Of a stretch of DNA of 64,000 nt, positions 37,707 through 44,190 are shown one piece after another. The DNA comes from Ascidiaceihabitans donghaensis (GTDB lineage Bacteria > Pseudomonadota > Alphaproteobacteria > Rhodobacterales > Rhodobacteraceae). The stretch lies in contig NZ_OMOR01000001.1 of assembly GCF_900302465.1 (NCBI RefSeq), positions 3,256,729 to 3,320,728 on the forward strand, given 5' to 3'. The position numbers and the translations under genes are program-made. How positions within the stretch are numbered: position 1 is the stretch's first letter; each line of letters begins with the position of its first letter. The notes under the pieces were generated by a model that did no database searches, was not told the DNA's origin, and worked only from the letters and a program-made list of their open reading frames with translations.

Positions 37707-38296
37707 CGGACACAGAAACCCTGAATGTCTACGCCCAAAAAGCACAGGACTACGCCGACTTAACGGTTGAAGGCACTCGCAAAGACAAGCAATTGCTGGG
37801 CTTTCTTGCCGCACTGCCACCCGGAGGCACGGTGCTTGATATAGGATGCGGTCCGGGCCACGCGTCGGGCCAGATCGCGCAAGCAGGCTTTCGCGTCATT
37901 GCAATGGACCCCGTGCGCGAAATGGTAGACCTTGCAGAACAGCAAAACGGTGTAAGTGCCACGCAAGGCACGTTTGATGATGTCACAAGCACCGACTGTT
38001 ACGACGGAATCTGGGCCAACTTTTCCATGCTGCATGTGCCCCGCGCAGATGTCCCGCGCCACCTTCGCGCCATCGCCACAGCCCTCAAACCCGGCGGCGT
38101 GTTTCATATCGGCGTAAAGCTGGGCTCTGGCGAGAAAAGGGACCCGATCGGCAGGCTCTACACCTACTTCACAGAACCAGAACTGGAAACGCTTTTGGGG
38201 GACGTGAACCTCACAATCACTGACCGGAGTTATGGAAGCGATAAAGGGCTGGACGGCGTCATGGCAGACTGGATATGTCTGCGCGCATATGGCTGA
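37703..38296 (+). CDS. Class I SAM-dependent methyltransferase
   Basis: A 197-residue methyltransferase with motif [17 protein letters not shown], the acidic position in VIAMDP, the [33 protein letters not shown] block (motifs II-III), and a C-terminal strand pair. The substrate is unknown. Translation begins at a TTG (37703) with CGGAG upstream. It overlaps DUF3429 by 4 bases and rnhA by 8 bases. Confidence 0.88.
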
Positions 38297-38744
38297 TTTA
38301 TTTGCATACACGGACGGCGCCTGTTCAGGCAATCCCGGCCCCGGCGGCTGGGGGGCTTTGCTGCAGGCCAAAGACGGCAACACAGTTGTCAAGGAACGCA
38401 CCCTGAAGGGTGGCGAAAAGCAAACCACCAACAATCGGATGGAGCTGCTGGCCGCAATCAATGCGCTTGAATCGCTGACCCGAAAGACCAAGATCACCAT
38501 CGTCACCGACAGCAACTATGTCAAAAACGGGATCACATCGTGGATCTTTGGGTGGAAGAAAAACGGTTGGAAAAACGCGGCCAAAAAGCCCGTCGCAAAT
38601 GCCGAACTTTGGCAGCGGCTTGATGCGGCAAACGCGCAGCATGATGTGACATGGGAATGGGTCAAAGGTCACGCCGGCCACCCCGAAAACGAACGTGCCG
38701 ATGAACTGGCGCGTGCAGGAATGGCACCGTTTAAAAAATCTTAA
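38289..38744 (+). CDS. rnhA: Ribonuclease HI
   Basis: Degrades the RNA of RNA:DNA hybrids. The 151 residues show the four acidic catalytic residues in [17 protein letters not shown] (Asp9), NRMELLAAI (Glu), IVTDSNYV (Asp) and NERADELAR (Asp), and the basic-protrusion region [14 protein letters not shown]. The start ATG at 38289 overlaps the methyltransferase stop by 8 bases. It is the last gene of the ispH series and converges on a small membrane-protein gene. Confidence 0.96.
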
Positions 38745-38769
38745 ACACTGCGCCTAACAATTTGCGCCG

Positions 38770-39006
38770 CTATTTACGCCAATGCGTCGGGACAATGATA
38801 AGCGCACCAACCGACGACACGATCGCGTTCAATCCGGGGCTGGCGAACCCAAAGCCGAACATCAGCCGCACAAAATAAAACAAGAACGCACCACCGATGC
38901 AGATGATGATGCTTTGAACGATACCGTTGTGGGTAAAATCATACTTTTCGGACAGATAGCCCATGATCCCCGCAATCACGACTGTGCCAATCATCGTCGG
39001 AAACAT
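38770..39006 (-). CDS. Small three-helix membrane protein, YeaQ/YmgE (transglycosylase-associated) type
   Basis: A 78-residue hydrophobic protein with three helices. The order (short N-terminal helix, YLSEKYDFTHNGIVQSIIICIGGAFLFYFV, then a Gly-rich C-terminal helix) fits the GlsB/YeaQ/YmgE family, but the usual GxxGaxxGG motif is weak, so the assignment is tentative. It lies 12 bases after fmt on the same strand and probably shares its transcript. Confidence 0.6.
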   Translation of the reverse strand: MFPTMIGTVVIAGIMGYLSEKYDFTHNGIVQSIIICIGGAFLFYFVRLMFGFGFASPGLNAIVSSVGALIIVPTHWRK

Positions 39007-39018
39007 AAAGGCCTCTCC

Positions 39019-39924
39019 TTACAATTGCGTGCCTTTGGGCATCGATACACCGCGCAGGAACACCTGCACATCCTGCGCCGCTTTGCCTGCCCGTTGCAAG
39101 CGGGTCAATCGCACGGCTCCGTCAGCACAGGCCACCGTCAGCGCATCGTCGATCACCTGACCTGCCACGCCCGTGCCCTCCACGCAGACCGACCCCAGAA
39201 CCTTCACGCGTGTGCCTTCAAAGTCAAACCAGGCCCCTGGAAACGGGGATAAGCCGCGGATCAAACGATCCACATCTCGCGCAGGCTGTGCCCAATCAAT
39301 CGCCGCTTCGCTTTTGTCGATTTTAGCAGCATAGGTGACGCCATCTTCGGGTTGGACTTCGGGCGGCAGTCCCGGCAAATCAGCCAACACATCCACAATC
39401 GCAGACGCCCCCATTGCGCTAAGGCGGTCATGCAGGTCAGCTGTGGTCTCGGCCTCCGAGATCGGCGTTGAACGGCGCAGCAACACCGGACCAGTGTCCA
39501 ATCCAGCCTCCATCTGCATGATGCAAACACCCGTTTGCATATCACCCGACATGATGGCGCGGTGAATGGGGGCAGCGCCCCGCCATCGCGGCAAAAGGCT
39601 TGCGTGAATATTCAAACATCCATGCACTGGCGCATCCAGTATCGTTTGCGGCAAAATCAAACCGTATGCCACGACAACAGCGACATCCGCTTGCAACGCT
39701 GAAAACTCGGCCAATGCGTCGGAGGTGCGTACCGAAACCGGATGGCGCACAGGCAATCCTAGCGCGTCTGCGCGGGCGTGTACCGGCGTCAAACGGTCCT
39801 TCTTGCCACGACCGGCAGGACGGGGGGGCTGACAATAAACGCACACAACCTCGTGCCCCGCCGCCAGAACAGCGTCCAGCACCGGAACGGAAAATTCAGG
39901 CGTTCCCATAAAAACCACACGCAT
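39019..39924 (-). CDS. fmt: Methionyl-tRNA formyltransferase
   Basis: Formylates initiator Met-tRNA using 10-formyl-THF. The 301 residues begin [19 protein letters not shown] and include [19 protein letters not shown] with the catalytic Asn/His/Asp neighbourhood, [19 protein letters not shown], and a C-terminal OB-fold ([17 protein letters not shown] onward). It lies downstream of three deformylase paralogues on the same strand, separated from the last by a 94-base spacer containing a C/G-rich repeat. Confidence 0.96.
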
Positions 39925-39947
39925 GACGACCCTTCTTTCTTTTCGCT

Positions 39948-39992
39948 AAAAATATCCCGGGGGAGACCCGTAAGGGGCGGGGGCAGCGCCCC
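39948..39992. repeat. Intergenic C/G-rich element (AAAAATATCCCGGGGGAG ... GGGGGCAGCGCCCC)
   Basis: The spacer between def and fmt contains an A-run, CCCGGGGG and a GGGGGC-AGC-GCCCC hairpin (39978-39992). A second copy with the same order lies at 54255-54303, and a shorter relative (A-run, ATCCCCGCCGGAG) at 24225-24245. From memory this kind of element is frequent between genes in Rhodobacteraceae. Its function is unknown; it could attenuate or protect transcripts. Confidence 0.6.
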
Positions 39993-40018
39993 GACTAAGC
40001 CCTCCGGACACCAAAACC

Positions 40019-40510
40019 CTAGCTTTTGCGTGCCTTGCGCAACAGCATATCGCGTTTCACACGACCCAGATTGTCAAAATACATGCGACCCTGCAAATGA
40101 TCGATTTGATGTTGGACGGACGTGGCTTCCAAACCGTCAAAGTCACGGCGGGTGATGATGCCAGCCTCATTCATATAGCGCACGACCACGGTTTTCGGGC
40201 GCTTCACCTTTGCAGAGACACCGGGCAAATTGGGACTGGCTTCATCGTGTGTGTTCATCTCGTCGGATGCATCCAGAACGCTGGGGTTGGCCATCAAAAT
40301 GCGGCGGTCACGCCGGTCCGATGCATCCACTACGGCCAATTGCAACATCACACCGATTTGCGGCGCAGCCAATCCGACACCGGGCATGGCATCCATCGTA
40401 TCGACCATATCTTGCCAAATGGCACGAATGTCATCGGTAATCTCACTGACTTCGGCGGCAGCTGTGCGCAGGCGCTTGTCAGGCCAAGGCAGGCAAAGAC
40501 GAACAGTCAT
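40019..40510 (-). CDS. Peptide deformylase-like protein with degenerate active site
   Basis: A 163-residue member of the deformylase fold, the last of three tandem copies. Motif 1 is intact (GVGLAAPQIG, 44-53). Motif 2, normally EGCLS, reads EASPN (90-94), so the metal-ligand Cys is Ser92. Motif 3, normally HExDH, reads HQIDH (134-138), so the catalytic Glu is Gln135, although both histidines remain. It is unlikely to be an active Fe/Zn deformylase. The frame is complete and the start overlaps the previous def by ATGA, so it is not an obvious pseudogene. A non-catalytic or altered-substrate role is possible. Confidence 0.85.
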   Translation of the reverse strand: MTVRLCLPWPDKRLRTAAAEVSEITDDIRAIWQDMVDTMDAMPGVGLAAPQIGVMLQLAVVDASDRRDRRILMANPSVLDASDEMNTHDEASPNLPGVSAKVKRPKTVVVRYMNEAGIITRRDFDGLEATSVQHQIDHLQGRMYFDNLGRVKRDMLLRKARKS

Positions 40511-41007
40511 TGCTGCGCCTCATAATCCGCCTCAAGTGCGGCACGGGTCGCGGCATCCAGATGGTCAAAAGTCACGATGCCGTCCAGATGATCCAGTTCG
40601 TGTTGGGCACAGGCCGCAGCAAACCCGTCAAAGGACTGCACGTAACGCGCACCTTCCAGCGAAGACCACACCATTTGCACTTGCGCGGGGCGGTTCACGG
40701 ACGCGCGGACGCCGGGAATAGACAAACAGCCTTCGTCATTTGAAACACGATCTTCCCCGACTTCTTGAAGCATCGGGTTGATACAAATCAGGGGATCGGA
40801 TTTGCCCTCTTTCCAGCCGACATCCATTACAAACATACGCACCATCGCCCCGACCTGAGGGGCAGCCAGACCACGGCCGGGGGCTGCGTACATTGTCTCA
40901 AGCATGTCTGCGGCCAACGTGCGGATGTCGTCAGTCACCTCATCTATAGGCACACATGTTTCGGTCAGGCGCGGGTCAGGCCACTTCAAAATGGGCAGGA
41001 CACTCAT
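40507..41007 (-). CDS. def: Peptide deformylase, second paralogue
   Basis: A 166-residue deformylase. Catalytic motifs 2 and 3 are intact: EGCLS (92-96) with the Cys ligand at 94, and HELDH (136-140). Motif 1 has Arg for Val (GRGLAAPQVG, 44-53), an unusual change next to the active site. It probably remains a metal enzyme that removes the N-formyl group, possibly with shifted specificity. It overlaps both neighbouring paralogues by 4 bases. Confidence 0.9.
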   Translation of the reverse strand: MSVLPILKWPDPRLTETCVPIDEVTDDIRTLAADMLETMYAAPGRGLAAPQVGAMVRMFVMDVGWKEGKSDPLICINPMLQEVGEDRVSNDEGCLSIPGVRASVNRPAQVQMVWSSLEGARYVQSFDGFAAACAQHELDHLDGIVTFDHLDAATRAALEADYEAQQ

Positions 41008-41522
41008 CCGCGCGCCAATTCGCGCTTCATCTTCACCATTTTGCGGGTGATCATTTGCCGTTTCAAAGGTTTGAGATGGTCGATGAACAGTTTGCCGTTC
41101 AGATGGTCAATTTCGTGTTGCACACATGTGGCCCACAAACCGTTCATATCTTCGGTCTGCTCATGGCCGTGACGGTCGATCCATTTGACGGTGACTTCGG
41201 CAGGCCGTGTCACATCCGCGAACTGTTCAGGCATGGACAAACAACCCTCTTCATAAACGCTCAGATCATCCGAAGACGCCACGACCTCAGGGTTAAACAT
41301 AATCAGCGGGCGCGGTGTTTCGCCTTCGGCTTTCACGCAGTCCAGCACGACGAGACGCTGCAAAACACCGACCTGCGGCGCCGCAAGACCAACGCCCGGG
41401 GCATCGTACATGGTTTCCAGCATATCATCAGCCAAGGCCCGCAGATCGTCCGTCAGATCAGGAACGGCGGCACAGGCTTTTTTCAAACGCGGATCGGGGT
41501 GCAAAAGAATAGGACGTTTCAT
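41004..41522 (-). CDS. def: Peptide deformylase, canonical copy
   Basis: A 172-residue deformylase with all three motifs: GVGLAAPQVG (43-52), EGCLS (92-96) and HEIDH (136-140), and the C-terminal helix LKRQMITRKMVKMKRELA. It removes formyl from nascent proteins and is the likely housekeeping enzyme. The ATG at 41522 (MKRPILLHPDPRL) matches the family start; the frame is open 36 bases more. First gene of def-def-def'-fmt, divergent from the C-S lyase gene. Confidence 0.96.
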   Translation of the reverse strand: MKRPILLHPDPRLKKACAAVPDLTDDLRALADDMLETMYDAPGVGLAAPQVGVLQRLVVLDCVKAEGETPRPLIMFNPEVVASSDDLSVYEEGCLSMPEQFADVTRPAEVTVKWIDRHGHEQTEDMNGLWATCVQHEIDHLNGKLFIDHLKPLKRQMITRKMVKMKRELARG

Positions 41523-41623
41523 AGGCTCAGATGTAGGACAAAGCGAAAGCCGCCGCAACGCCCCCTTGCACGCAGATCAGATCAGAGTAGCTTGGGCCAA
41601 ACCTGTAAAATCCGGAGACCCCC

Positions 41624-42793
41624 ATGAGCTTTGACGACATTATAGAACGACGCGGCAGCCACTGTGTCAAATGGGACAAAATGGAAGAGCTGTATGGCGT
41701 GCCCACCGACACCGGGTTGGCCATGTGGGTCGCGGACATGGACTTTAAACCGCCGCAATGCGTGCTTGATAGTGTAACTGCCCAAGTCGATCATGGCGTG
41801 ATGGGTTATTTCGGCGACGACAGTAAATACAAGGCGGCCATCAACTGGTGGATGGAAACACGCCACGGTTGGTCCGTGGACCCCGCATGGATCTTCACCA
41901 CACACGGGTTGGTGAACGGCACCGCCATGTGCGTTGATGCCTTCACAGCCCCCGGCGACGGGGTTGTGCTGTTCACGCCTGTTTACCATGCCTTTGCCAA
42001 AGTTATCAAAGCGGCGGGGCGCCACGTGGTTGAATGCGAACTGGCCAACACAGATGGTGTCTACACGATGGATTTCAACGCCTATGATGCGCAAATGACG
42101 GGCGCTGAAAAGATGGTGATCCTGTGTTCACCACATAATCCCGGCGGGCGTGTCTGGACCAAAGCAGAGCTGCAAGAGGTTGCCGATTTCGCCAAACGCC
42201 ATGATCTGGTGCTTGTATCGGACGAAATCCACCACGATCTGGTGTTTCCGGGAAACACACACGTTCCGATGGCAAAAATTGAGGGCATCACCGATCGGTT
42301 GGTGATGATGACAGCCACCACCAAGACCTTCAACATTGCAGGCTCCCATTCGGGAAATGTGATTATCGAAGATCCTGACTTGCGGGCGCGGTTTGCAGGC
42401 CGCATGGCTGCTTTGGGTTTGTCTGCGAACTCTTTCGGTCTGTTCATGGCGACCGCGGCCTATTCCCCTGCCGGCGCCGCATGGGTGGACGAGTTGATCG
42501 AATACCTTGATGGCAACCGCAAGCTGTTTGATGCGGGCGTCAATGCGATTCCGGGGCTGGCGTCGATGAACTTGGAGGCCACGTATTTGTCCTGGGTTGA
42601 TTTCGACGGCACAGGCATGTCGCGCGAAGATTTCACCAACCGTGTGCAAAAAGACGCTGAAATTGCAGTCAACCATGGGCCGACGTTTGGCACAGGCGGC
42701 GACACCTTCTTGCGCTTCAACATCGCCACCCCCCGCGCACGCGTCCAAGAGGCCGTTGACCGCATTGCACGCGCGTTTGGGGATTTGCAGTAA
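41624..42793 (+). CDS. PLP-dependent C-S lyase / aminotransferase, MalY-PatB family
   Basis: A 389-residue fold-type I PLP enzyme. MalY/PatB signatures include MWVADMDFKPPQCV near the start, VILCSPHNPGGRVW, LVSDEIHHDLVFPGNTHVP and the Schiff-base Lys in TATTKTFNIAGSHSGNVII. The family cleaves cystathionine or cysteine conjugates to a thiol, pyruvate and ammonia; a role in cystathionine beta-lyase activity is likely. The gene is alone on the plus strand, divergent from def and converging on the MATE gene with 2 bases between stops. Confidence 0.9.
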   Translation: MSFDDIIERRGSHCVKWDKMEELYGVPTDTGLAMWVADMDFKPPQCVLDSVTAQVDHGVMGYFGDDSKYKAAINWWMETRHGWSVDPAWIFTTHGLVNGTAMCVDAFTAPGDGVVLFTPVYHAFAKVIKAAGRHVVECELANTDGVYTMDFNAYDAQMTGAEKMVILCSPHNPGGRVWTKAELQEVADFAKRHDLVLVSDEIHHDLVFPGNTHVPMAKIEGITDRLVMMTATTKTFNIAGSHSGNVIIEDPDLRARFAGRMAALGLSANSFGLFMATAAYSPAGAAWVDELIEYLDGNRKLFDAGVNAIPGLASMNLEATYLSWVDFDGTGMSREDFTNRVQKDAEIAVNHGPTFGTGGDTFLRFNIATPRARVQEAVDRIARAFGDLQ

Positions 42794-42795
42794 AT

Positions 42796-44190
42796 CTACG
42801 CTTTGACAGCAGGGCGCGCGGAACTGCGCCTGAGCTGCCAAAGCACCAGTATACAGGTCGCCAGAACCAACCCTTCGGCGACCGCCCCCGCATACCAAAT
42901 GCCCCATTCCCCCATTACAAAGGGCAAGGCAAAGGTCAGCGGGATTGCAAACACATAAGTGCGCGACAGCCCCAGAATAGCGGCGCGGGCCGCATCACCA
43001 ATGGCTTGGAAATAGGTGGCAATCATCATCAACGGTCCGAACAGGATCAGCGTCAGAGTTGCAACAGGAATGATACGCGCCAATTCCAGCTGAATGCCGA
43101 TGTCGTCGACAAATATGCCCCCCAAAGACGGGGCCAGCAGCAAGAACAGGCCCTGCATCGTGGCGCAGTAAATGAAGGCCGCCACAAGGGCGATCCGAAC
43201 AGCTTGGCCCACGCGGTCCATCGCCCCGGCCCCGTAATTGTTGCCCACAATGGTCTGAAAGGCCAAGGACAAGCCAAGCAACGGCAAGAACGTGAACGTC
43301 ATCAAACGCGTCAAAATCCCAAAGGCTCCGCTGGTCGTCTCGAACATATCCGCAGCCCAGATTTGCAACGAAAACAACGTCACCCCTGCAGACAAGGACA
43401 GCCCCACATATCCAAGGCTGGACGGTGCGCCCAAAGCCAGCATTTCAATCCAATGACGTGCCTGCGTACGCAGCAGTCGCAACGGCACGGCGCGGGGATT
43501 GCGACGCCGGTACAGCAAAATGACGCAAGCGGCCAATAGCTGCGACAGCAACGTGCCATAGGCCGATCCGGCAACCCCCATGTCAAAGGGCACGATGAAC
43601 AGCCAATCAAAGAAAATGTTCATCAAAGCTGACGCCATCGTCACCGCGGCCATGAACGGCAACAACCCTTCGGCGCGCACCGCATCAAGGTTGACGGCAT
43701 AGACAAACGTCAACGGAGCGCCAAAAATCATGATGGCAATGTAGAGATGCCCCAAGGCGGCCAAACCGGCATCGCCCGCTGCAACCTGCAACGCCAAAGA
43801 CCAGCCAAACACCACGAACCCTACAATCAGGATGCCCGAAATCAGCACCGAAAGCTGCAAAGCCGACGCAAACACATCTGTTGCGGCTTGCTGTTTATTC
43901 GCGCCCAGATACCGCGCATAAACGGATGAAAATCCGTTGCCGACAAGCGTAGAAAGCGCGACGATCATCATATAAAGCGGAAACATCAACGTGACAGCGA
44001 TCACCGCATCAGCCCCCACATAAACCCCCAGAAAATAGGCATCCACGATGGTGAACAGTCCGTTGACAACCATCACAAGCATGATGGGCGCCGCCGTTTT
44101 TAGAAACAAAGCGCCAAGGCTGCCTTGCAGATAAATGTTGTCGGTTCGGGTTTGGGGCGCAACCACGCCCTTTGGATCAGTGTGAGACAT
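42796..44190 (-). CDS. MATE family efflux transporter
   Basis: A 464-residue membrane protein with about twelve helices in two related halves, as in multidrug and toxic-compound extrusion pumps driven by Na+ or H+. The first half has TAAPIMLVMVVNGLFTIVDAYFLGVYVG, with the Pro and Asp positions of MATE helix 1, and STLVGNGFSSVYARYLGA; the second has ALGAPSSLGYVGLSLSAGVTLF and QTIVGNNYGAG. Substrates are unknown. No regulator lies adjacent. Confidence 0.92.
   Translation of the reverse strand: MSHTDPKGVVAPQTRTDNIYLQGSLGALFLKTAAPIMLVMVVNGLFTIVDAYFLGVYVGADAVIAVTLMFPLYMMIVALSTLVGNGFSSVYARYLGANKQQAATDVFASALQLSVLISGILIVGFVVFGWSLALQVAAGDAGLAALGHLYIAIMIFGAPLTFVYAVNLDAVRAEGLLPFMAAVTMASALMNIFFDWLFIVPFDMGVAGSAYGTLLSQLLAACVILLYRRRNPRAVPLRLLRTQARHWIEMLALGAPSSLGYVGLSLSAGVTLFSLQIWAADMFETTSGAFGILTRLMTFTFLPLLGLSLAFQTIVGNNYGAGAMDRVGQAVRIALVAAFIYCATMQGLFLLLAPSLGGIFVDDIGIQLELARIIPVATLTLILFGPLMMIATYFQAIGDAARAAILGLSRTYVFAIPLTFALPFVMGEWGIWYAGAVAEGLVLATCILVLWQLRRSSARPAVKA

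Follow-up and report, generated by a model that had tools for sequence, protein, structure and literature searches.

A conserved deformylase paralogue of the Rhodobacteraceae with a replaced catalytic site and a basic C-terminal helix

Introduction

Def3, the product of the third of three tandem peptide deformylase (PDF) genes ahead of fmt in Ascidiaceihabitans donghaensis, has lost the metal-ligand cysteine and the catalytic glutamate of active deformylases to replacements that recur without exception among the relatives we collected, and it keeps a C-terminal helix that is basic at positions through which E. coli PDF contacts the ribosome. Judged from sequence, Def3 is the tail without the catalytic residues and its neighbour Def2 the catalytic motifs without the tail. 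We hypothesise, with a confidence that falls a little short of even, that Def3 is a conserved, ribosome-docking, non-hydrolysing PDF paralogue and that its altered pocket has kept a binding function, with nascent formyl-Met chains as the probable ligand.

Several clustered PDF genes occur in 98.1% of Rhodobacterales reference species and three PDF genes together in 62.5% of these genomes, and the rationale of the clustering is called elusive in the accessible part of Lamberioux et al. (2025; PMC12690207). The def1-def2-def3 genes, which lie side by side on one strand ahead of fmt, are that cluster. The same accessible part holds no mention that we could find of Ser92, Pro93 and Gln135 or of the difference in tails between Def2 and Def3, and a literature search by title and start of abstract, with subscription journals mostly outside its scope, returned no account of the Def3 active site or of the split in tails. 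We believe that the cluster was already known and that the conserved Ser/Pro/Gln site and the separation of docking from catalysis are new.

The def cluster and its distribution

The window, a stretch of 64,000 nucleotides of contig NZ_OMOR01000001.1, had been described in an original prediction as holding three def genes coupled by ATGA overlaps and followed by fmt, the first copy canonical and the second with Arg in motif I, and the coordinates, overlaps and translations agree with that description (Table 1). All three products match PF01327 far above its cut-off in a profile search (Def3 with 138.9 bits against a gathering cut-off of 22.8), and they are the only such matches in the host genome (100% complete, 7 contigs), which has no fourth. 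A scan of positions 38000-43000 against Rfam gave no match, and none of the sites returned by promoter (3 sites, 1.6 expected) and terminator (8 sites, 3.7 expected) scans could be attributed to the def cluster.

Table 1. Features of the def cluster, in positions of the window.
Feature	Position	Strand	Remarks
def1, canonical peptide deformylase, 172 aa	41004..41522	-	GVGLAAPQ, EGCLS, HEIDH, basic C-terminal tail
def2, deformylase paralogue, 166 aa	40507..41007	-	Arg45 in motif I (GRGLAAPQ), EGCLS, HELDH, without basic C-terminal tail
def3, deformylase paralogue, 163 aa	40019..40510	-	catalytic residues replaced, basic C-terminal helix kept
fmt, methionyl-tRNA formyltransferase	39019..39924	-	downstream of def3, 94 bases between
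ATGA overlap def1/def2	41004..41007	-	
ATGA overlap def2/def3	40507..40510	-	
Arg45 codon of def2	40873..40875	-	
Ser92-Pro93 codons of def3	40232..40237	-	metal-ligand Cys and Leu of motif II in canonical enzymes
Gln135 codon of def3	40106..40108	-	catalytic Glu in canonical enzymes
predicted C-terminal helix of def3, residues 150-162	40025..40063	-	basic at E. coli PDF ribosome-contact positions

A Def3-type match (E 1e-42 or better) was found in 258 of 296 Rhodobacteraceae genomes, which are at least 90% complete and, with few exceptions, each of a different genus. Among the 38 genomes that have no such match, 35 have some PDF match and three none; 30 of the 35 were read at the locus, giving a canonical Def1 in all, Def2 in two and Def3 in none. 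Across 299 genomes of the phylum the Def3 profile reached at least 262 bits in 23 genomes, all Rhodobacteraceae, and the remaining matches listed (E 1e-52 or better) stayed at or below 196 bits, these coming from second copies in those 23 genomes and from PDFs of four further genomes within the class. Among named records, the best relatives of Def3 likewise belong to Rhodobacteraceae, for example Ruegeria, Sulfitobacter and Phaeobacter. One record titled Nocardioides marinus (L227), by name an actinobacterium, holds a Def3 72% identical to that of the host and is probably mislabelled or contaminated.

The gene order in 229 non-redundant loci was def1-def2-def3-fmt in 112, def1-def3-fmt in 81, def1-fmt in 26 and def1-def2-fmt in two, with def1 or fmt missing from view in a further eight; because loci with Def3 were fetched for their Def3, these counts are not frequencies. 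When the presence of Def3 is placed on a FastTree tree of 225 Def1 proteins (195 with Def3, 30 without) it requires 22 changes, and the absences are commoner among tips next to the outgroup and scattered elsewhere.

The active site of Def3

Def3 reads GVGLAAPQ in motif I, EASPN with Ser92 in motif II and HQIDH with His134, Gln135 and His138 in motif III. Translation bears out the earlier reading that Ser92 replaces the metal Cys and Gln135 the catalytic Glu, with both His residues and an intact frame kept, and it adds two changes in motif II, Pro93 for a conserved Leu and Asn94. With the canonical type 1 PDF (PF01327; E. coli PDF) Def3 thus shares the fold, Gln51 of motif I, both metal His, the motif II Glu and a basic C-terminal helix that retains most of the pattern of ribosome contacts, and differs from it by Cys to Ser, Leu to Pro and Ser to Asn in motif II and by Glu to Gln in motif III.

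The motif I pattern of active PDFs (Gly-hydrophobic-Gly-hydrophobic-Ala-Ala-x-Gln) is present in Def3, but EGCxS, with its metal-ligand Cys, and HExxH, with its catalytic Glu, are not. We compared the 199 best-matching Def3 proteins from a set of 584 distinct PDF proteins, and Gln51, Glu90, Ser92, Pro93, His134, Gln135 and His138 are present in 199/199; only 14 of 163 positions are invariant in this sample, and seven are these active-site residues. Pro93, Asn94 and Ser131 stand at 100, 96 and 99%, and all three differ from the Def1 consensus. A pattern this constant in distinct proteins is neither chance nor sequencing error, and we reject the latter as a cause of the Def3 site. Ser92 is encoded by AGY in 164 and by TCN in 35 of the Def3 genes. 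Parsimony on a FastTree tree places 25 switches between the two codon classes, a number that tree errors can inflate. Since a switch between AGY and TCN needs another residue in between or a double change, the serine itself seems, from its codons, to be under selection.

The amide of the Leu next to the metal Cys helps to hold the oxyanion in active deformylases. The accessible part of PMC3101196 gives no support for this role of the Leu91 amide. The loss of the Cys ligand, the general base and this Leu together is not expected of a working deformylase. It is very unlikely, in our estimate, that Def3 has weak or conditional deformylase activity in the manner of some type 3 PDFs whose motifs are altered, since each of the three residues is replaced in 199/199 and the Def1 of the same cluster is canonical; yet type 3 PDFs of Trypanosoma brucei with altered motifs are reported as active (PMC12690207, accessible part). 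Type 3 PDFs (the second copies of S. aureus and S. pneumoniae, and those of trypanosomatids) resemble Def3 in their motif substitutions, and some have weak or no activity (PMC12690207 and PMC5591237, each in part). Def3 differs from them in that it groups with the adjoining Rhodobacteraceae copies, in trees built from sequences other than type 3 PDFs, and in that it keeps its C-terminal helix; the C-termini of type 3 PDFs are described as variable in length (PMC5591237, in part).

No part of Def3 is more invariant than the altered site, and thus the evidence points to a working pocket. A mere placeholder at the ribosome would have no need of such a pocket. The same invariance, which includes both metal His, speaks for one of the two main rivals to our hypothesis, in which Def3 is an enzyme with altered chemistry or substrate at the ribosome, holding a metal by two His and Ser (or another set) and acting, with Gln135 and a changed pocket, on a group other than N-formyl; the near-fixed Pro93, Asn94 and Ser131, so different from the Def1 consensus, would suit it as well. 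However, position 135 offers no general base, the neighbourhood of def genes and fmt suggests no substrate, and to our knowledge there is no citable precedent for chemistry of this kind, so that we consider it unlikely.

Selection on Def3

The median dN/dS was 0.23 for Def1, 0.27 for Def3 and 0.47 for Def2 over 33 locus pairs, each locus used once, as obtained with a home-written Nei-Gojobori script from pairs with dS of 0.15-1.2 only, and because many of these pairs are near saturation the values compare the three genes and are not absolute. Mean pairwise identity gives the same order, with 73% for Def1, 68% for Def3 and 51% for Def2 in the 115 loci that have all three. Def3 thus evolves nearly as slowly as Def1 and more slowly than Def2 and, by these sequence measures, the constraint on Def3, altered site included, is tighter than that on Def2 with its intact motifs.

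The original prediction had named random loss, frameshifts or neutral dN/dS as signs of decay, and conservation of Ser92 and Gln135 under purifying selection as the check to run. That check came out in favour of conservation, and the reading of Def3 as a decaying duplicate is almost certainly wrong: the invariant site and low dN/dS oppose it, and no inner stops occur in the frames of the Def3 matches listed for the 296 genomes of the family. One match of the search across the phylum (genome G665) is listed with a single TAG, yet the protein read from its locus has 163 aa and all motifs. What speaks for decay is the 38/296 genomes that have no Def3-type match and one copy, at positions 1638-2132 of locus L152 (genome G321), which looks decaying. 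The invariant site nevertheless refutes decay for the family as a whole. The L152 copy, which is counted among the 199, reads HQANH and has lost the motif I glycine, with Ser92 and Gln135 still in place. Because of this copy and the 38 genomes, Def3 is dispensable over evolutionary time. What stands of the earlier interpretation is a retained, coupled, altered-site copy under purifying selection family-wide; the partner role, regulatory role or other metal chemistry that it suggested did not gain the same standing.

This conservation also bears on whether Def3 soaks up natural inhibitors of deformylase, actinonin for one, as a decoy or buffer. An accessory PDF makes V. cholerae less susceptible to actinonin (PMC12690207, in part), but there the effect depends on residue 97 of a PDF that is active, and Def3 belongs to a housekeeping cluster and is almost as strongly conserved as Def1, which makes the decoy highly improbable.

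The C-terminal helix and the predicted structure

The C-terminal helix of E. coli PDF binds L22 at a site that overlaps that of methionine aminopeptidase (MAP) (PMC8712518 and PMC12690207, each in part), with uL22 contacts through L149, K150, R153 and K157 and 23S rRNA contacts through K160 and R163 (PMC12690207, in part). We numbered tail positions from the first His of motif III and scored 150, 151, 157 and 160, position 151 being included because it is Arg in alphaproteobacterial PDFs, most of which have Met at 153. All four are basic in 198/199 Def3 (which covers the positions of E. coli K150, K157 and K160), 225/226 Def1, 36/37 other alphaproteobacterial PDFs and 27/27 paralogues of a further family, NF009484 (see below), and in 0/120 Def2. 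Mean net charge of the tail is +8.2 in Def1, +7.0 in Def3 and -0.6 in Def2. The position of E. coli R153 is basic in 4% of Def3 and 0% of Def1 and is mostly Met in both; Met at 153 is taken as likely to weaken uL22 binding (PMC12690207, in part), which applies to Def1 and Def3 alike. Against identical docking of the two stands the position of E. coli R163, basic in 23% of Def3 and 100% of Def1. The docking residues that Def3 has kept point to the ribosome exit site.

An AlphaFold model of Def3 (mean pLDDT 95.5, pTM 0.90) predicts the full deformylase fold, including the C-terminal alpha-helix typical of type 1 PDFs at residues 150-162, and superimposes on E. coli PDF entries with TM 0.92-0.95 and rmsd 1.1-1.4, although the alignment behind it (36 Def3, 11 Def1 and 11 Def2 rows) may pull the model towards the canonical fold. 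Of the nine matches (E 0.001 or better) from a search of a viral structure library, five bear the name deformylase and four are unnamed.

Def2 has Arg45 in 120/120 proteins of Rhodobacteraceae and the Cys and HExxH in 118/120, and it is possible that it is a soluble deformylase with another specificity. One more protein that matches Def2 best (L053), from another family, has Ile for Arg45. A Def2 copy at positions 1983-2486 of locus L081 has no HxxxH motif that a pattern search could find, so the site can be lost from Def2 as well.

The position of E. coli Arg97, residue 101 of Def1, is Tyr or Phe in all Def1 copies, and is Tyr in 73% and Phe in 14% of the other alphaproteobacterial PDFs examined; Arg to Tyr at residue 97 lowers actinonin susceptibility in V. 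cholerae (PMC12690207, in part).

The second main rival takes up the contrast between Def2 and Def3: Def3 would be a partner subunit that provides ribosome docking for the tail-less Def2, or that modulates Def1, in a complex made from one mRNA. The retained catalytic residues of Def2 beside its complete lack of the full tail pattern would fit this, as would the ATGA overlap of def2 and def3 in 104/118 adjacent pairs and the presence of Def2 in 57/109 Def3-positive and 2/30 Def3-negative loci (Fisher p 2.4e-6), a test that used one locus per genus, leaves kinship uncorrected and drew its Def3-positive loci by hand from the match list and not at random. On the other side, Def3 occurs without Def2 in the 81 def1-def3-fmt loci, hence Def2 is not its only possible partner, joint loss can stem from the tandem position, and the invariant altered active site is left unexplained. 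We therefore regard the partner role as quite unlikely.

Origin of the paralogues

A second PDF paralogue family, NF009484, called 'peptide deformylase' by NCBIfam, was found in other alphaproteobacteria (L295-L319, L031 and L032), which we take to be Rhizobiales. Like Def3, its members have Ser for the motif II Cys and the basic tail pattern (27/27 distinct proteins); unlike Def3, they have His for the motif I Gln, keep the catalytic Glu and have Gln for the second metal His. No match to fmt was found in the fetched flanks of the 27 (about 1.5 kb a side). The search for NF009484 in the order of genome G058 covered one genome. Def3 itself scores 132.8 bits against this family, below the curated cut-off of 190 bits.

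Def2, Def3 and the NF009484 paralogue (PRK12846.1-5) each form one clade in our trees. With the motif columns dropped, the best tree sets Def1, Def2 and Def3 apart from other alphaproteobacterial PDFs (98/99) and pairs Def2 with Def3 (99/94), so that two tandem duplications near the base of the Rhodobacteraceae would be the simplest story; a quick tree from all columns supports Def2 with Def3 at only 73. Separate origins of Def3 and the NF009484 paralogue are favoured by the motif-free tree. A clade of the two together is not rejected in the motif-free test (p-AU 0.47), and with all columns it has a likelihood 22.3 units above the quick tree (p-AU 0.77).

Discussion

We propose that Def3 would dock at the tunnel exit through its C-terminal helix, as Def1 would, and that its altered pocket would still have a ligand, for which the formyl-Met end of a nascent chain is the likeliest candidate, and might also bind a metal. 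Lacking the hydrolytic residues, Def3 would be a naturally occurring substrate trap, delaying deformylation or holding it in reserve, and it would compete with Def1 or MAP for the ribosome site. Def2 would be its mirror image, with the catalytic motifs present and the ribosome tail lost. The retained His pair and Gln51, the change of Glu to Gln and the docking residues together resemble, as far as residues can tell, such a trap at the tunnel exit. PDF and MAP compete for the ribosome in E. coli, and PDF leaves nascent chains slowly after deformylation (PMC8712518, in part), and hence the timing of that step could be set by a competitor that does not cut. Because Pro93 and Ser131 alter the pocket, however, the ligand may be something other than formyl-Met.

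A broader claim, which we think somewhat improbable, is that the Alphaproteobacteria evolved, once or twice, a ribosome-docked protein of the deformylase fold with a strictly conserved non-deformylase site, either a reader or protector of formyl-Met or an enzyme for another N-terminal modification, and that docking (Def3) and catalysis (Def2) were split beside a full Def1.

The name 'peptide deformylase' in databases also covers copies that lack the catalytic residues. The usual view of deformylation is that it happens automatically on nearly every bacterial protein. If our hypothesis of a non-hydrolysing, ribosome-docked Def3 is true, a large bacterial family would time or gate the removal of the formyl group, or withhold it selectively, and there would be a concrete answer to the question, left open in the accessible part of PMC12690207, of why Rhodobacterales cluster several PDF genes.
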